Translations under genes and position numbers: made by a program
From: Acidimicrobiia bacterium
GTDB taxonomy: Bacteria > Actinomycetota > Acidimicrobiia > Acidimicrobiales > Poriferisodalaceae
Length of the DNA: 64,000 nt
Reading direction: 5' to 3'
NCBI GenBank assembly: GCA_022820925.1
Contig: JAJEEO010000015.1
Coordinates: 1-64,000 of the forward strand
In this document: positions 35,917 through 44,696 of the stretch, piece by piece
Position numbering within the stretch: the stretch's first letter is position 1
Layout: each line of letters begins with the position of its first letter
The notes under the pieces: generated by a model
Told to the model about the DNA's origin: nothing
The model's database searches: none
Seen by the model: only the letters and a program-made list of their open reading frames with translations

Positions 35917-37035
35917 CTAGAGGCCGAGGGCGACGGCGGCGCGCTCGGTCTGGGCGTCGGTGTCGCCGTGGCTCAGGCAGAACGCCCTGGCGCGCCTGGT
36001 GTAGAGCTGCAGGTCGTACTCGGTCGTGTAGCCGATCGCTCCGTGAACGGTGTGGGCGGCATGGACCATGTCGACCATCACCTCGTTCGCGAAGACCTTG
36101 GTGCCGGCGACCTCGAGGGTCGCGTCGCGTCCCTGGTCGAGCAGCCAGGCGGTCTCTGCGACCAGGAGCCGGCAGGCGTCGGTGTTGATGCGCATGTCGG
36201 CCAACCGGTGGGCCACCGCCTGGTAGCTGCCGATCACCCGCCCGAACTGCTGGCGGTTCGATGCGTACTCCGACCCGAGCCGGATCATCCCCTCGCAGCA
36301 GCCGACCGCTTCAGCAGTGGCGAGAACGGCGGCCGCGTCCAATCCGGCGTCGATTGCCTGCTGCGCGGCGCGTCCGCGGGCCAGCACGCCGCCTGCGGGC
36401 ACGGAAACGTTGTCGAACTCAACGTGGAACAGCGGGTCGCCGCCCGTTGCGCCATGGCGAGCCCACCTCACACCCGCGGCGTCGCGGTCGACGGCGACGA
36501 CCGCAGCTTCGCCGTCTGATGCTCTCAGCGACACGAGCAGCACCTGCGCCACGGACGCGCACGGGACCATCGCCTTCGCGCCCGAGATCGTGGCACCGGC
36601 GTCCGTCTCGGTGAGGACGCTCGCGGGGGCGGATCGTTCGTCGCGCCCGGCCGCGTCGGCCAGCGCTGGCGTGATCACTGCGTCGCTGGTCGCGAGCGTG
36701 CTCAACATGCTGCGCGTCAGCGCTGTCGGCTCCACGGCTTGGAGAAAGGCGGCCGCAAAGCCCGCCGTGGCGACCAGCGGCGTCGATGCGGCGGCCCGTC
36801 CGAGCTCCTCGCCGAGCAGGCAGAGATCAACGAGCCCTGCACCGCCCCCGCCGATGTCTTCGGGCAGCGCAAGCGCGGTCCAGCCGAGCTCAGCCATCTG
36901 AGCCCAGATCTCGGCGTTGACGCCGTCGGCACTCGCCTCGACCTCTCGCACCATGTCGGGATCGAGCGTGTCGGCCAAAAGGCGCCGGGCGCCGTCTCGG
37001 ATCATCTCCTGGGTGTCGCTGAGCATGAGATCCAT
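35917..37035 (-). CDS. Acyl-CoA dehydrogenase
   Basis: LALPEDIGGGGAGLVDLCLLGEELGRA, RQQFGRVIGSYQAVAHRLADM, HGAIGYTTEYDLQLYTRRA. Confidence 0.92.
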   Translation of the reverse strand: MDLMLSDTQEMIRDGARRLLADTLDPDMVREVEASADGVNAEIWAQMAELGWTALALPEDIGGGGAGLVDLCLLGEELGRAAASTPLVATAGFAAAFLQAVEPTALTRSMLSTLATSDAVITPALADAAGRDERSAPASVLTETDAGATISGAKAMVPCASVAQVLLVSLRASDGEAAVVAVDRDAAGVRWARHGATGGDPLFHVEFDNVSVPAGGVLARGRAAQQAIDAGLDAAAVLATAEAVGCCEGMIRLGSEYASNRQQFGRVIGSYQAVAHRLADMRINTDACRLLVAETAWLLDQGRDATLEVAGTKVFANEVMVDMVHAAHTVHGAIGYTTEYDLQLYTRRARAFCLSHGDTDAQTERAAVALGL

Positions 37036-37046
37036 CGCAGTCGCTC

Positions 37047-38222
37047 CTACCGGGGCAGGCCGAGGCCGCGCTGGGCAATGATGTTCCGCTGGATCTCGTT
37101 GGTGCCCATGGCGATCGGCTGCGGGATGCTGTGAACCCAGTGATCGTTCATGAGCCCGTCGAGCGGAGCGAGACCGTCACCGGTCGTGAGCTGTCCCCTG
37201 GCGCCCACGATATCGAGACCGATATTGCCGATCAGGATGTTGAGCTCCGACGAGAAGACCTTGCTCACGGCCGGGTCGACGTCGTTCGCGACGCCCGCCG
37301 CCATGGCAGAGACGATGCGGTAGCACAACAGCCGCGCTGCCCGGTACCGGGCCTGCAGCCGTACCAACCCCGACCGCACCGACGGACGCAGGGCCAGCGG
37401 CTGGCCGTTCTCGTCCTTCGTGGTTGTCGCGTACTCGATCAGAGCGTCGAGCAGCACCTTCACCCGCGCATGAAGCGCAGCCCCCACCCGCTCATGAGCC
37501 AGTGTGGAAATCGCGACTCGCCAACCGTCACCACGCGGACCCACCAAGCAGTCGTAGGGCACCTCGACATCGTCGAAGAAGACCTCGTTGAACTCCTTGG
37601 GGCCGCCCATCGAGTCGATCGGCCGAACCGTGATCCCAGGCGTGTTCATGTCGACCAACAGCATCGACAGACCCTGGTGCTTGCGCTCGCCCGGATCTGT
37701 TCGGCACAGCAACAGGCACCAGTCGGCTGCAGTCGCGTAGCTGGTCCAGATCTTCTGACCGTTCACCAGGAAGCACCCGTCAGCGTCGGTCGCCTTCGTG
37801 GACAGCGCTGCCAGATCGGAGCCGGCCTCGGGCTCGGAGAAGCCCTGGCACCACATGACCTCACCCCCAGCCATCGGCTTGAGGAACCGCTCCTGCTGGT
37901 CGGCAGTGCCGAAGTCCATCAGCATCGGGCCGATGTAGTTGAGGCTCATGTACTGCGGCCCACGGGGCTCGCCGGCCGCCCACATCTCCTCGCGCACCAC
38001 CATCTGGCGCCACACGTCGGCGTCGACGCCCCCGTGCTCGACCGGCCACGACATCGTCAGCCAATCCCGCTCCGCCAGCTTCATGCAGAACTCCCGGGTG
38101 AACGGGTAGATGCGGTCGTCGTCGTGAAACAGGCCCTTCCACCACTCAGGCAGCTCTGCGTCCATGAACGCCCGCAGCTCCGCCCGAAATTGCTCCGCCT
38201 CAGCCGGGAACTCGAACTCCAT
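37047..38222 (-). CDS. Acyl-CoA dehydrogenase
   Basis: WCQGFSEPEAGSDLAALSTKATDADGCFLVNGQKIWTSYA; likely start MEFEFPAEAEQ at 38222. Confidence 0.93.
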   Translation of the reverse strand: MEFEFPAEAEQFRAELRAFMDAELPEWWKGLFHDDDRIYPFTREFCMKLAERDWLTMSWPVEHGGVDADVWRQMVVREEMWAAGEPRGPQYMSLNYIGPMLMDFGTADQQERFLKPMAGGEVMWCQGFSEPEAGSDLAALSTKATDADGCFLVNGQKIWTSYATAADWCLLLCRTDPGERKHQGLSMLLVDMNTPGITVRPIDSMGGPKEFNEVFFDDVEVPYDCLVGPRGDGWRVAISTLAHERVGAALHARVKVLLDALIEYATTTKDENGQPLALRPSVRSGLVRLQARYRAARLLCYRIVSAMAAGVANDVDPAVSKVFSSELNILIGNIGLDIVGARGQLTTGDGLAPLDGLMNDHWVHSIPQPIAMGTNEIQRNIIAQRGLGLPR

Positions 38223-38468
38223 CCCCCACCTCCTCAGCGAAGAACGCCGGCAGCGGAGACCGACGCCGTACGACGACGTACGGTATTGCGGCACCGAGCT
38301 CACTGCGAGTTGTGCAGGGGCCGTCAGCACACCAGCGGTCACCCTGAGCTGATCCGACTCAGATCACGGCGGACCAACCGCCTTTGGCGCTTGTACGCGT
38401 CCAGACGATTGGTAGCTTCGGCAGCGAAGCGGACCGGCCAGCAATGGCAGGCCAGAGTGGGGGACGCG

Positions 38469-39311
38469 ATGCCGAAGCACCTGACCGACGCCCAGATCGG
38501 CCACTACCGCGAACGGGGCTATATCTCACCGGTCGATCTTCTGACCGAGAGCGAGGCCGCCGAGGCGCGGGCGAAGCTCGAGGCCTATGAGGCCCGCAGC
38601 GGCGGCCCACTCGGCGGCGCTCAGCGTGCGGGCGGTCATCTGCTGTGGACGTGGCTCGATGAACTCATGCGCCACGAGACCCTGCTCGACGCGGTCGAGG
38701 ACCTGATCGGCCCGGACATCCTGTGCTGGAATTCGATCTTCTGGATCAAGGAGGCGGGTTCGCCCAGCTACGTCGGCTGGCACCAGGACCTCGAGTACTG
38801 GGGGCTCGACAACGACGAACTCGTCAGCGCGTGGATCGCGCTCTCACCCGCTTCCGAAGAGGCCGGTGCGATGTCGGTACTGCCCGGAAGCCACCGAGAA
38901 CTGCTCTCCCACGACGAGACCTACCACGCAGACAACATGTTGACGCGGGGCCAGGAGCTCAAGATCGACGTCTCCGAGCGAGAGGTCGCGTCGATGGCAC
39001 TCGAGCCAGGCCAGATGTCGATGCACAACGTTCGGCTCGCACATGGATCGGGGCCGAACACCACCGATGACCGTCGCATCGGTGTGTCGCTGCAGTACAT
39101 GCCGACCCGGACCAAGCAGCGCCTCGTCGACTGGGACTTCGCCACCCTCGTCCGCGGCACCGACGACTACGGACACTTCGAGCTGACCCCGCGACCGCAG
39201 CGAGACTTCGATCCGGTCGCCGTCGAGTTCCACCAGCGAGCCGGCGTCGCACTGCGCGAACTGCTCTACCAGGGTGCCGAGCGTCCGCCCGAACGGGCCC
39301 CGACGCTGTAG
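38469..39311 (+). CDS. Phytanoyl-CoA dioxygenase (PhyH) family protein
   Basis: GWHQDLEYWGLDNDELVSAWIALSPASEEAGAMSVLPGSHR...HGSGPNTTDDRRIGVSLQYMPT; ATG at 38469. Confidence 0.9.
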   Translation: MPKHLTDAQIGHYRERGYISPVDLLTESEAAEARAKLEAYEARSGGPLGGAQRAGGHLLWTWLDELMRHETLLDAVEDLIGPDILCWNSIFWIKEAGSPSYVGWHQDLEYWGLDNDELVSAWIALSPASEEAGAMSVLPGSHRELLSHDETYHADNMLTRGQELKIDVSEREVASMALEPGQMSMHNVRLAHGSGPNTTDDRRIGVSLQYMPTRTKQRLVDWDFATLVRGTDDYGHFELTPRPQRDFDPVAVEFHQRAGVALRELLYQGAERPPERAPTL

Positions 39312-39329
39312 CTGCGCCCTGATGGTTCG

Positions 39330-39345
39330 TGTCGGAGGGGGGACT
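39330..39345 (+). repeat. Direct repeat of tRNA-Leu 3' end (candidate att site, distal)
   Basis: TGTCGGAGGGGGGACT identical to 43625-43640; ATGGTTC also shared just outside with a 4-nt gap. Confidence 0.7.
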
Positions 39346-39635
39346 GTCTTTCCGCAGGTCAACGGTGAGGTTGAGTCTCTGGTTCCCCCTAGTTCCCCCA
39401 GTTCAAGTTCCCGCGCCGAGTGGCTCGGCTCGCCATACAGACCGCAGGCGAACGGCAAAGTCTGTGAGTATCGGGTTGCGGGCGCCATCGAGGCCGGTCT
39501 GACCCAGGCCAAAGTCTGACTTCGTGTCTTTCGTTCGATCTGTCGGCCGGCTGAAGTGACGTCCGATCGGGCGGGAGCTCGGCCGCGAGAGCCAGGACAG
39601 CCCGGGTCGGCCGATGTCTGCATAGTGAATCGATT

Positions 39636-39664
39636 CATAGCCACATAGCTATCTTCTGGCTATG
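39636..39664. promoter_or_regulatory. Operator-like inverted repeat overlapping abiEi-like start codon
   Basis: CATAGCC (39636-39642)/GGCTATG (39658-39664) plus internal ATAGCTAT; TATCTT box ends 6 nt before the ATG. Confidence 0.65.
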
Positions 39665-40246
39665 ATTTCATACATAGTCCCAACAGCCATTCCGATCGCG
39701 TTTACGCACGCCCAGGCCCGTGACCTCGGGATCTCGAACCGCGACCTCGCAAAGCTGACCACACAGGGCGACCTGCAACGCATTGCGCGCGGCATCTACG
39801 CCCGCTCCGGACACGGTGTCGACCCAGACCTTCTCGAGCTAGCCCTGCGCAGCCCTCACACGACTCTCTGCCTCACGACCGCCCTCGCTCACCACGACCT
39901 CACCGACGAGATCCCCCACACAATCGACGCCGCCTTGCCGCGTCACCACTGGCAGCCGAAGACACGGGCTCCGGTGACCTGGCATCGGTTCGACCGCGAC
40001 ACCTTCCACATCGGACGCGACGATCTTCACCTCGCCGACACGATCACCATTGCCATCTACAGTCCGGCGCGCTCGATCATCGACGCCTACCGCCTCCGTC
40101 ATCGACTCGGCATCGACCTCGCACACACAGCCCTACGCCGCTGGCTCAGCCGACGCGGCAGCCATCCCTCCGAGCTCCTCGAGGTTGCCAGATCGTTCCC
40201 GCGCGCCATGCCAGCACTTCGCGCCGCAATCGAAACCCTTCGATGA
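39662..40246 (+). CDS. AbiEi-type antitoxin/transcriptional regulator (type IV TA)
   Basis: FTHAQARDLGISNRDLAKLTTQGDLQRIARGIYARSG; ATGA overlap with AbiEii-like gene. Confidence 0.85.
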   Translation: MISYIVPTAIPIAFTHAQARDLGISNRDLAKLTTQGDLQRIARGIYARSGHGVDPDLLELALRSPHTTLCLTTALAHHDLTDEIPHTIDAALPRHHWQPKTRAPVTWHRFDRDTFHIGRDDLHLADTITIAIYSPARSIIDAYRLRHRLGIDLAHTALRRWLSRRGSHPSELLEVARSFPRAMPALRAAIETLR

Positions 40247-41094
40247 GCCCCCAGCCGAGCCGAGACACGACCGCGGGCGCCGCCTATCTCGACCTCCAGG
40301 CCGCCGCCCGCGCCACTGGTCGACCAGTTGACGAACTCTTCCAGCTCTACGCGCTCGAAGGCTTCCTCCGCCGCCTGGTCGAATCCGACCACGCCGCAAC
40401 GTTCGTCCTCAAAGGCGGTGTCCTGCTTGCCGCGTATACCGAGAGACGACCGACCCGCGACATCGACCTAGCCGGAACCGACGTCGATGGCGACCTCACC
40501 GCCATCGCAAGCATCGTCGCCGACATCGTGAACGTGAGTTTCGATGACGGCCTCGACCAGCTGGCCATCGCCAAGGTGGAGGAGATCCGCGACGACGCGT
40601 CCTATCCAGGAATCCGCGCAACGGTCACCGGAAAGCTGGACCGGGCGAGGCTCCGCTTCCACGTCGACATCAGCATCGGTGACCCGCTGTGGCCCGAACC
40701 AGACCTCGTCGAGCTTCCCCAACTCCTCGACGCCGAGCCAATCCCTGTCCGCGCCTACTCCGCCGAGCTGATCCTGGCCGAGAAGATCGTCACTGCAATC
40801 CAGCGCGGGACAGCATCAACGCGCTGGCGTGACTTCGTCGACATCGCTTCACTCGCCAAGGCCCAGCTCGACATGACCCACCTCAGCGCATCACTACAGA
40901 TGGTCGCGGACCATCGACAAGTGAGCATCCGCCCGTTGGCCGATGTCCTCGACGGCTACGCCGACCTGGCACAGAGCAGATGGTCGGCCTGGCGCAATCG
41001 CCAAGCCCTCCACAGCACCCCAGAGCAATTCGCTGACCTCCTCAACCAGGTCATCACGTTCGCCGATCCACTCCTGCAGCCCTTCACCGACTGA
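40243..41094 (+). CDS. AbiEii-type nucleotidyltransferase toxin (type IV TA)
   Basis: FVLKGGVLLAAYTERRPTRDIDLAG; AELILAEKIVTAIQRGTASTRWRDFVDI. Confidence 0.88.
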   Translation: MSPQPSRDTTAGAAYLDLQAAARATGRPVDELFQLYALEGFLRRLVESDHAATFVLKGGVLLAAYTERRPTRDIDLAGTDVDGDLTAIASIVADIVNVSFDDGLDQLAIAKVEEIRDDASYPGIRATVTGKLDRARLRFHVDISIGDPLWPEPDLVELPQLLDAEPIPVRAYSAELILAEKIVTAIQRGTASTRWRDFVDIASLAKAQLDMTHLSASLQMVADHRQVSIRPLADVLDGYADLAQSRWSAWRNRQALHSTPEQFADLLNQVITFADPLLQPFTD

Positions 41095-41474
41095 CGGTCT
41101 CCGGGATAGGGCGACACCGCCATCAGCAACCCACGCCAGCCGCAACCTGAATTCGTCCAGCGGCAATGAGTCAGCAGCCGCTAGCAAGTCTGTTAGCAAA
41201 CGGCCCCCGCACCTCGCTAAGTGACCGGCGACCTGCGGAAACGCAGCCCCCACAGGGTGACGGTGGTGCGTGTCGCACTTCCCCATCGAACAACATCACC
41301 TAGCGCGATTACGGTGAACTCACCTAGTGGGCCCGGTCACCGTAGAGCTGACGGGGACCCGTGATACCGCCTTCGACCAGTCGCCCGCGGTGAGCGTCAG
41401 ATAGATCAGTTACGCGGCAGCGTTGGCCGCAGACTGCTCGGCAGCCACCTTCGCTTAACGCTCCTAGGGGCCGT

Positions 41475-42596
41475 TTACAAACCGCGCGCTGCTGTGTTTC
41501 GTTTGCTGCGGATTTCCTGGCAGATGGTCTTTGGCATAACTTGGTCCCACCTGCTTGCCATCTCAGGATCGGCCTTCCTGTCGCGTCGACTGTCGCAGTT
41601 GCACAGAGGAGCATCCAGGCCGTCGAGTTCAGCTTGCAAGCCCCGGGCCATGTCGCGCATCGCCCGGTGATGTCTCTTGCTGCGCGAGTTCGGCCCCGCA
41701 GAAGCATCGTGCCGCTTTTGTTGAGTTTCGTAGTCTCTGCGCAGCCGCCTCCACGCAATCTGACGCTGGACATCAGCGTCGTCCCAGTAGCGATCCATGC
41801 GGTCACACAGACCGAGCCAGTGCATTGCGCCGCCTTCGCTTCGGGAGAGCACCGCTTGAGCCGTCTGGTCCAATGCAGACGGCTTGCAAATCAGCCACGG
41901 GGTCGACACGATGCCGGGCTCGCCGGCAAGCGCTAGCGCGGAGAACCTGACTTCTCCGATCTGTTCCGTCTCCACGCTCACGTCTCCGGTGTCCATCTCA
42001 GGGACCCCGCAAATCATGATGCGCGGACTCAACGGCATCATGAACAGCACAGGCGCTTCAGGCTTAGGGCCGCCCCAGCGGGGCGCATGAAACACGGGAA
42101 CAGCGTTCAGCCCGATGGGCTCATCTGCCGGCAGAACCGTGACGACGAGCCCGCAGTCATGGTAGGCCTGCGCCTCCTCCCATCGTCCCTGGATCCTGGC
42201 TGCCGTGTCGGGGCTCGCCACACCGTTCTGAATGTCAGCGATCTGTTGAATGAGCACTGTCAGCGCGCGCGCATGATGCAGCACTGCCAGCTCTATCAAC
42301 GATGAGAAGCTGCGCGGCTCGGACACCATCCTCTCCATGGCATCGAAGTCATCGCCGTTCGAGGCGAGCAGTCTCTCTATCTCGTCAATGGTGTGGGCGG
42401 CGGCGTTCTCCGCAGGATGCCAGCTGTCCTCGAGATCCTGTGGCCACAGATCCACAACAGAATGCAGCGTCCTCGCTTTCGCCGACACTTCAGCACTGTC
42501 ACGGTGATACAAGCACACCACCCCGACCTTGCCGTCCTCAGCCCAGCGTTTGATCAGAGACCTGCTGATGTAGTGCTGACGCTGTGTTCCGGACAT
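41475..42596 (-). CDS. DUF4238 family protein
   Basis: QRQHYISRSLIKRWAEDGKVGVVCLYHR...LVVTVLPADEPIGLNAVPVF. Confidence 0.75.
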   Translation of the reverse strand: MSGTQRQHYISRSLIKRWAEDGKVGVVCLYHRDSAEVSAKARTLHSVVDLWPQDLEDSWHPAENAAAHTIDEIERLLASNGDDFDAMERMVSEPRSFSSLIELAVLHHARALTVLIQQIADIQNGVASPDTAARIQGRWEEAQAYHDCGLVVTVLPADEPIGLNAVPVFHAPRWGGPKPEAPVLFMMPLSPRIMICGVPEMDTGDVSVETEQIGEVRFSALALAGEPGIVSTPWLICKPSALDQTAQAVLSRSEGGAMHWLGLCDRMDRYWDDADVQRQIAWRRLRRDYETQQKRHDASAGPNSRSKRHHRAMRDMARGLQAELDGLDAPLCNCDSRRDRKADPEMASRWDQVMPKTICQEIRSKRNTAARGL

Positions 42597-42675
42597 CGCG
42601 CGAACCTAGTGGCCTGTCTGAATCGCCCCGGGTCTTGTGGAGGCTCTGGGGGTCCCTGACTTCGGTGGAGGCGGG

Positions 42676-43200
42676 TTAGGGCTGTTCGTCGAGCAGTTCG
42701 GCCAGATCGTCTTGGACACCCAGCTCGGCTGCCCATTGGTGCATGTAGCTGACGTCGAGATCGTTGATGGCAGCGATTTCGACGCAGTCCCGCCATTGGA
42801 TCTCAGAGCGCGACTCCAAGCGCCACCGGAGCTTGGCCAACACGACGTCTTCGGGCGCGGCGATCCATGTCTCGATTCCGAGAACTTCAGCGCGGACTCG
42901 CCGAGCAATGCGGGACTGGGTGAACGCGTCTTCCGACGGAACGGCGAAGATGTCGACCTTGCCGCCGCTTTGGGGATGAAGGACGTTGAAGTTGCCTCCG
43001 GAGGTGACCGCCCGGCGGGCCTCTGACTCCGGGAAGTAGACCTCGCTTCCCCGAAGCGCTTCGAGCACCGCCTCGCCTGAATCGGGCACCAGCAGGACCA
43101 CGATGTCCACATCGCGAGTCATCCGGGGCGTCCCCCACGCCGCCGCGGCTGTTGAGCCGACCACGACGTAGTCCAGGCCAGCAGACTCAAGGGCACGCAC
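42676..43200 (-). CDS. Nucleotidyltransferase-fold protein (AbiEii/DUF6036-like)
   Basis: GLDYVVVGSTAAAAWGTPRMTRDVDIVVLL...PEDVVLAKLRWRLESRSEIQWRDCVEI. Confidence 0.8.
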   Translation of the reverse strand: MRALESAGLDYVVVGSTAAAAWGTPRMTRDVDIVVLLVPDSGEAVLEALRGSEVYFPESEARRAVTSGGNFNVLHPQSGGKVDIFAVPSEDAFTQSRIARRVRAEVLGIETWIAAPEDVVLAKLRWRLESRSEIQWRDCVEIAAINDLDVSYMHQWAAELGVQDDLAELLDEQP

Positions 43201-43229
43201 CGTGCACTCCAGCGCGGCTGTGAGATCGA

Positions 43230-43568
43230 TCAGGGTTCGATTCCCACCGACTCAGGCCAGACTTCGCCGGCGAGCTCAGGGCCATAGCGGGCAACGACAA
43301 GACCCAAGAAGACCTCGCTGTCGTCGTAATCGGGGTGGCGCATTCGCACCGACCTCTCCTCCATGACCGCACCCTCCACGTTGAGCTGACGCCATTCCTC
43401 AAGCCGCTGCGGAACTGTGCGGGCACGGACGGCGTCCATCTGACGCCGCCAAACGTGATCAGGCGTGTCCGCCGGACGTCCAGAGGGATTGCGGCGCACC
43501 GTCACAACCCGAATCGTACTGAACCCCTGTGACAGCCATCCTGTCCCGCAAAACCCAGAGAACACCAA
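43230..43568 (-). CDS. Hypothetical protein, possible antitoxin partner of the downstream nucleotidyltransferase
   Basis: Short ORF directly upstream on the same strand; start uncertain (internal MDAVRARTV... possible). Confidence 0.5.
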   Translation of the reverse strand: MVFSGFCGTGWLSQGFSTIRVVTVRRNPSGRPADTPDHVWRRQMDAVRARTVPQRLEEWRQLNVEGAVMEERSVRMRHPDYDDSEVFLGLVVARYGPELAGEVWPESVGIEP

Positions 43569-43624
43569 CTTGCTCTGACCAGTGCATTTGGGAACTTCTG
43601 GGAATCCCTGACATGGTTCCTGGG

Positions 43625-43640
43625 TGTCGGAGGGGGGACT
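43625..43640 (+). repeat. Direct repeat, tRNA-proximal copy (candidate att site)
   Basis: TGTCGGAGGGGGGACT = 39330-39345. Confidence 0.7.
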
Positions 43641-43708
43641 TGAACCCCCACACCCTTTCGGGCACTAGATCCTTAATCTAGCGCGTCTGCCAATTCCGCC
43701 ACTCCGAC
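43625..43708 (-). tRNA. tRNA-Leu, anticodon read as AAG; CCA not encoded
   Basis: GTCGGAG-TGGCGGAATTGGCAGACGCG-CTAGA-TTAAGGA-TCTAG-long variable arm TGCCCGAAAGGGTGT-GGGGGTTCAAGTCCCCC-CTCCGAC; loop TTAAGGA puts AAG at 34-36. Confidence 0.93.
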
Positions 43709-43798: not shown

Positions 43799-44635
43799 TC
43801 AGGCCTCGTCGATCGCCGTCGCGAGCGCGTCCAGGCGGCCCGGGTCGAGCTCGCCCCGCCACGACCACACGACGATGTCGACGCCGGCATCGAAGAACTC
43901 CTGCGCACCGGCCACAGCCCCCACGACGTCTCCGGCCTCCAAGCTGAGGTGGATCGACCGGTCGATCTCCGCCTGGTCGCGGCCGACACGCTCGCAGTGG
44001 GCCTGCAGCACCCCGTCGAGTTCCTGCCATGCGGCGACGTCGTCTGGGAAGAGCATGTCCCACTGGTCGGCATACTTCGCCGCAGTTCGCAGGGTTCGCA
44101 CTCGGCCCGACCCGCCGATGACTATCGGGATGCGGTCCTGCACCGACTTGGGCTCGCACCACGCATCGGTCAGCTCGAAGAAGCGGCCCTTGTGCGTGGT
44201 CGTCGACTCGGTGAGCAGCTTGACGATCACCTCCATGCCCTCTTCGAGCCGGTCGGAGCGGTCGCGCAGCGGACCGAGGTCGATGCCGTACGCATCGCTC
44301 TCCATGAAGTTCCAGCCAGCACCCATCCCCAGCTCGAAGCGCCCGTTGGAGATGTGGTCGAGCGTGGCTGCCATGTTGGCCGTCACCGCCGGGTGACGGT
44401 GGTGCATGCCGTTGACCATGGCGCCGATGCGGATCCGCTCGGTCGCCTGGGCCAGCGCCGCCAGCATCGTCCAGCCTTCGAGGTTCGGGCCGTCGTAGGG
44501 CGGTGCCAGCGGGTAGAAGTGGTCCCAGTTCCACGCCGACTCGATGACCTCCATCTCGTCAGCGAGCTGCCACAGCGTCAGGTATTCCGGCCAGGCAGCA
44601 TGGTGCGGCGGGGTCTTGATCGCGTGTCGTCCCAT
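43799..44635 (-). CDS. LLM-class F420-dependent oxidoreductase
   Basis: TERIRIGAMVNGMHHRHPAVTANMAATLDHISNGRFELGMGAGWN. Confidence 0.92.
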   Translation of the reverse strand: MGRHAIKTPPHHAAWPEYLTLWQLADEMEVIESAWNWDHFYPLAPPYDGPNLEGWTMLAALAQATERIRIGAMVNGMHHRHPAVTANMAATLDHISNGRFELGMGAGWNFMESDAYGIDLGPLRDRSDRLEEGMEVIVKLLTESTTTHKGRFFELTDAWCEPKSVQDRIPIVIGGSGRVRTLRTAAKYADQWDMLFPDDVAAWQELDGVLQAHCERVGRDQAEIDRSIHLSLEAGDVVGAVAGAQEFFDAGVDIVVWSWRGELDPGRLDALATAIDEA

Positions 44636-44696
44636 CGGGGCTCCTTGTCGCAGGCGCTTCGCACAATAGGGGCGCGGTGGCCCCGGCACCGAAGGC

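Follow-up and report, generated by a model that had tools for sequence, protein, structure and literature searches.

A recombinase-less cargo islet between two att-like repeats at the 3' end of a tRNA-Leu gene in an acidimicrobial genome

The window, a 64,000-nucleotide stretch of DNA from an Acidimicrobiia bacterium analysed here as a whole, carries an islet of about 4.3 kb inserted at the 3' end of a tRNA-Leu gene. We consider it likely, with a probability of roughly 70%, that this insertion was site-specific and was made by a large serine recombinase that has since been lost, leaving CIME-like cargo flanked by att sites. Among congeners, the same position is either empty, with a single copy of the repeated core, or occupied by other cargo. 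Fragments or intact genes of serine recombinases lie at the tRNA in relatives, and one congener retains a relic of such a gene. We infer that such a recombinase brought in the window islet, which would be what is left of a larger, decayed element.

The initial annotation described an islet bracketed by TGTCGGAGGGGGGACT, present in the same orientation at the tRNA-Leu 3' end (43625-43640) and at 39330-39345. Both copies are where they were reported to be, and the exact repeat proves to be one base longer. This 17-bp core, GTGTCGGAGGGGGGACT, occupies positions 39329-39345 and 43624-43640 in the same orientation. No further exact copy occurs in the 3.28-Mb genome (n = 2 in total), and the next best match has two mismatches. 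By chance, an exact core is expected ~0.001 times per genome and ~2e-6 times per 10 kb beside the tRNA. A shared ATGGTTC motif just outside the repeat, after a 4-nt gap, had also been proposed; the motif is indeed present, but it rises only weakly above chance (P ~0.01, anchored-alignment null). The features of the region are as follows.

38469..39311, + strand: PhyH family gene, conserved left flank (Pfam PhyH 4.8e-28; orthologues with 92-98% amino acid identity in seven congeners)
39329..39345, + strand: attR-type copy of the 17-bp core, PhyH side (left flank identical to the G008 empty site)
39346..39404, + strand: element-side arm adjoining the PhyH-side core, a probable attP half (conserved in part among congeners whose cargo differs)
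39662..40246, + strand: AbiEi-like antitoxin/regulator (Pfam AbiEi_4 8.6e-7; PADLOC AbiEi 2.1e-51)
40243..41094, + strand: AbiEii-like nucleotidyltransferase toxin (Pfam AbiEii 2.4e-34; PADLOC 4.8e-77)
41475..42596, - strand: DUF4238 protein (Pfam DUF4238 9.8e-8, N-terminal part only)
42676..43200, - strand: nucleotidyltransferase-like gene, second in a two-gene module (sub-threshold, weak DUF6036/AbiEii similarity)
43230..43568, - strand: small gene, the immediately upstream partner of the nucleotidyltransferase (travels with it in G007, G003 and G219)
43623..43708, - strand: tRNA-Leu(AAG), intact attachment gene (ARAGORN)
43624..43640, + strand: attL-type copy of the 17-bp core, within the tRNA-Leu 3' end (exact repeat)
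43799..44689, - strand: LLM-class F420-dependent oxidoreductase gene forming the conserved right flank (its orthologues adjoin the tRNA in congeners)

The genes between the two cores are thus those for AbiEi, AbiEii, the DUF4238 protein and the nucleotidyltransferase with its small neighbour, and the gene families previously proposed for this cargo are upheld by Pfam and PADLOC, with a sub-threshold match for the nucleotidyltransferase. The small partner gene matched no family among Pfam, NCBIfam and PADLOC. As predicted from their sequences, these genes are cargo of the selfish or defence type, comprising an AbiE operon, a module of a nucleotidyltransferase and a small partner, and a DUF4238 gene. 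Adjacent AbiEi and AbiEii genes are present, the AbiEii start overlapping the AbiEi end by 4 bp, and this bicistronic arrangement and the matches to both families are shared with the AbiE type IV toxin-antitoxin/abortive infection system, such that the predicted pair fits a type IV toxin-antitoxin operon (PMC3985639). The islet also differs in composition, with a GC content of 63.1% compared with 64.6-69.7% for all same-size segments outside it. Any present mobility or defence activity of the islet is putative.

The nucleotidyltransferase and the small gene are a separate mobile pair. Copies of the nucleotidyltransferase are found in the G007 islet (94% identity), elsewhere in G003 (95%) and in a genome of another family, where the nucleotidyltransferase and small partner proteins are 81% and 71% identical, respectively. 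At the DNA level, the pair is 96% identical to that of the G007 islet, and the similarity has sharp edges. The arrangement of a small gene followed immediately by a DUF6036-like nucleotidyltransferase is found again at loci L242 (G003, contig C87), L243 (G219), L247 and L249, suggesting a two-gene module that is spread across families of the order. Separately, an inverted, 82% identical copy of the core plus its arm lies at 41224-41251, between AbiEii and DUF4238, within a 290-bp segment that is bracketed by 16-bp inverted ends (41192-41207 and 41467-41482). Given these internal features, the islet may be composite.

The genus sample comprised eleven genomes, and the congeners are different species whose marker loci are roughly 71-97% identical. 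Two of them, G008 and G004, lack the cargo and carry a single copy of the repeat, as expected from the earlier suggestion of site-specific integration at the tRNA 3' end, and neither keeps both repeats. G008 is collinear with the window over 28.0-46.6 kb apart from the islet. Its PhyH stop codon is followed by 20 bp and then by the tRNA, with one core copy, and when the window flanks are joined at the 17-bp core, they are identical to this G008 PhyH-tRNA junction through the tRNA end. The G004 contig ends inside PhyH. Given the divergence between these species, G008 could have lost an islet rather than never having had one. The concatenated congener tree mixes markers with conflicting signal and gives no polarity to gain and loss at this site.

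Other congeners carry different insertions at the same position. Between PhyH and the tRNA, G001, G003, G006 and G007 have islets of 0.8-4.2 kb that are likewise integrase-less, and their cargo differs from that of the window. Core remnants beside PhyH are found in all four, in more or less decayed form, being degenerate in G001 and G003.

G001 islet, 2.1 kb: leucine-rich-repeat protein
G003 islet, 0.8 kb: PIN toxin
G006 islet, ~4.2 kb: RES toxin and a PIN-gene fragment (two contigs joined by a 132-bp exact overlap)
G007 islet, ~3.4 kb: leucine-rich-repeat protein and the nucleotidyltransferase/small gene pair of the window (two contigs, 141-bp exact overlap)

The variable cargo that had been anticipated at this tRNA therefore exists, and the cargo genes are not conserved and syntenic among relatives; together with the single-core empty sites, this variability supports site-specific integration at the tRNA 3' end as first proposed. 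For G002, G005 and G009, the PhyH side of the site was not resolved. Islets bounded by a second core were also found in another genus: in G013, an exact second core 1.0 kb downstream of the tRNA encloses a beta-propeller (PD40) protein gene, and in G021, a second core with one mismatch, 0.56 kb downstream, encloses an acetyltransferase. From the empty and filled alleles across congeners and this other genus, the tRNA therefore anchors an insertion hotspot that is rich in toxin-antitoxin genes. In the neighbourhood, the order of the two acyl-CoA dehydrogenase genes and PhyH (window 35917-39311) differs in congeners (L049, L152 and L156), and dehydrogenase fragments lie within the G001 and G006 islets.

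These observations leave very little room for reading the second core as an old fragment of a tRNA or a chance repeat, with genes between PhyH and the tRNA turning over in the ordinary way. This view is strongly disfavoured: G010 does have an additional LLM gene in the PhyH-tRNA interval and no second core, indicating that gene gain here does not always depend on the repeat, but chance is not expected to yield 17 matches out of 17, the flank of the PhyH-side core equals the G008 empty site, and core remnants occupy the same place in congeners.

The target gene is widely shared, with a close homologue of the tRNA-Leu in all 39 family genomes searched (39/39), full-length in most. All family tRNA-Leu loci scanned have the anticodon AAG, and recombinase-bearing relatives outside the family have GAG. 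An A34 is unusual in a bacterial leucine tRNA.

Evidence on the enzyme comes from what lies against this tRNA in relatives. Within the family, decayed 3' ends of large serine recombinase genes abut tRNA-Leu in G018, G020 and G012. The fragments in G018 and G020 are next to the tRNA, with a Zn_ribbon_recom match of 2.5e-11 in G020, and their reading frame ends inside the tRNA gene (GGT/TGT GTC GGA GGG GGG ACT TGA, encoding ...VGGGT and stop). Profile searches of named genomes recovered intact genes of ~549 amino acids with Resolvase, Recombinase and zinc ribbon domains in Acidimicrobiia and more distant relatives in Frankiaceae and Streptosporangium. The intact genes likewise run into the 3' part of the tRNA, here a tRNA-Leu(GAG) of other actinobacterial genomes outside the family, and end there in VGGGT and stop. 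Within the genus, G005 carries a 64-bp relic of the recombinase 3' end, GRIRVSAGPDACTSECVGGGT and stop, that abuts the same tRNA. This relic is 81% identical over 21 amino acids and is 92% identical in DNA to locus L189, and a probable type IV restriction enzyme is encoded nearby.

Neither the full-length recombinase nor PF07508 has a match in the window genome, and no trace of the recombinase was found inside the islet, where the tRNA-side flank, CATGGTTCCTGG, is unlike the recombinase 3' end. The description of the islet as integrase-less holds, as there is no integrase or transposase ORF inside, and searches of its ORFs against Pfam, NCBIfam and PADLOC gave no recombinase, relaxase or transfer families. 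A search of phages for the recombinase gave no match, and a search of plasmids gave two records at 34-36%. The small serine resolvases of the genus (most frames ~245-315 amino acids) were set aside as irrelevant; none is at the tRNA, and they have only weak N-terminal similarity to the full-length recombinase. At L221 in G058, a serine-recombinase gene abuts a 3' half of tRNA-Leu, with ~10 kb, phage-like genes included, separating it from the intact tRNA; this locus is apparently two elements stacked at one tRNA.

The most likely candidate for the original enzyme is a large serine recombinase from a tRNA-Leu-targeting family. Its gene would have occupied the tRNA-side end of the element, ending within the core, with the VGGGT codons and the stop supplied by the tRNA. 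Insertion would have rebuilt the tRNA on one side, with the core now at 43624-43640, and would have left the old tRNA 3' end beside PhyH, with the core at 39329-39345. Loss of the recombinase gene would then have trapped the cargo between two att sites. The resulting islet would not be self-mobile, and its excision or mobilisation might follow if an element with a matching recombinase entered the cell, as for a CIME.

Because tyrosine integrases are encoded elsewhere in the window genome, an enzyme other than a serine recombinase could have made the insertion. Such an integrase might have been lost later or might act in trans from another locus. It is mostly tyrosine integrases that use tRNA 3' ends (PMC5704250; PMC3218068), the window genome encodes a P4-like integrase at C10:200046 and another at C2:90667, and for a serine recombinase an identity block of 17 bp is long, unless the tRNA has to be rebuilt. 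However, searches of 29 loci found no tyrosine integrase matching the seed set next to this tRNA, no tRNA lies within the 14-16 kb examined around the C10 and C2 integrases, and the recombinase ends that do abut this tRNA, in G018, G020, G012 and the congener G005, are those of serine recombinases. We therefore regard a tyrosine integrase as an unlikely agent.

We assign a similarly low likelihood to homologous recombination with the tRNA-Leu region of a relative, whereby the islet was brought in or the tRNA side replaced, and the second core arrived with the donor flank. The tRNA-side flank of the islet resembles the flank of the G004 empty site (TTCCTGG plus core, P ~0.01), the nearest congeners have a PhyH that is 94-95% identical yet an LLM gene only ~84% identical, and the modules are mosaic, as seen in the sharp-edged nucleotidyltransferase pair. 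Against this, the G008 empty site corresponds to the flanks joined exactly at the core, islets with core repeats also occur in another genus, and the flank similarity is weak. Because of the G004-like flank and the unequal PhyH and LLM similarities, the tRNA side may have undergone homologous exchange at a later time.

The arm beside the PhyH-side core, ACTGTCTTTCCGCAGG, is partly common to G000, G001, G006 and G007. In spans that include the core, it matches G007 at 84% over 67 bp, G001 at 79% over 76 bp and G006 at 90% over 30 bp. It is conceivable, though we think it improbable, that the recombinase-less islets of the genus are more than products of decay, being passenger modules that share an attP arm, carry exchangeable toxin-antitoxin or defence cargo and depend on visiting serine-recombinase elements for mobilisation in trans at a single tRNA, in the manner of satellite-like cassettes. 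Repeats of the tRNA core with an arm, GTGTCGGAGGGGGGACTTGAACTCACCTCCCC and variants, also occur without the tRNA at L225 and L227-L230 (G059 and G061). Their interpretation as tandem arrays of recombinase-less modules was rejected, as many lie beside IS481-like transposases and there is no tRNA.

Elements that combine att-flanked cargo with the lack of recombination or transfer genes are known as CIMEs, and those at the tRNA-Lys(CTT) of Streptococcus agalactiae and in S. salivarius have, like the islet, direct att repeats at the 3' end of the target gene (PMC5704250; PMC7563491). The islet has two 17-bp cores where empty sites have one, it carries no integration or transfer genes of its own, its size is within the range of 1.2-13 kb, and such islets are frequent at one hotspot. 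It differs in that its host is actinobacterial and its probable parental recombinase is a serine enzyme. Descent from an ICE or IME and accretion-mobilisation are further features of CIMEs, which the islet matches in structure; at this tRNA, a recombinase relic lies in G005 and recombinase fragments lie in G018 and G020, and none is seen in the window islet. The islet is best read as a CIME-like remnant, att-flanked and recombinase-less, of a kind already known. A composite transposon or IS-borne islet was rejected given that no transposase ORF is present and the ends are a direct repeat derived from the tRNA. A PICI-like phage satellite was likewise rejected, with no integrase and no phage-derived replication or packaging genes among the islet ORFs in searches of Pfam, NCBIfam and PADLOC.

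A second comparison concerns the actinomycete ICEs (AICEs) of Mycobacterium, which use serine recombinases to enter a single tRNA-Leu gene; the survey describing them calls serine-recombinase integration into tRNA genes rare and records no AICE in the acidimicrobial subclass (PMC3218068). These elements and the islet have in common an actinobacterial host, a tRNA-Leu target and a serine recombinase, here a candidate (PMC3218068). In contrast, the islet has neither a recombinase nor AICE genes, and the window genome lacks a serine-recombinase gene that ends at the tRNA. The recombinases are likened by type and target.

Relative to what could be guessed from the sequence alone, the analysis adds an empty site, a congener hotspot with both empty and filled alleles, and a recombinase family. 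With their defined attB, the intact recombinases suggest themselves as candidate integration tools for actinobacteria that are poorly tractable. The hotspot is tied to a family of serine recombinases whose target is the 3' end of tRNA-Leu genes, a choice that the literature calls rare for such enzymes, and toxin-antitoxin cargo can persist at such an att-bounded site after the recombinase has been lost.
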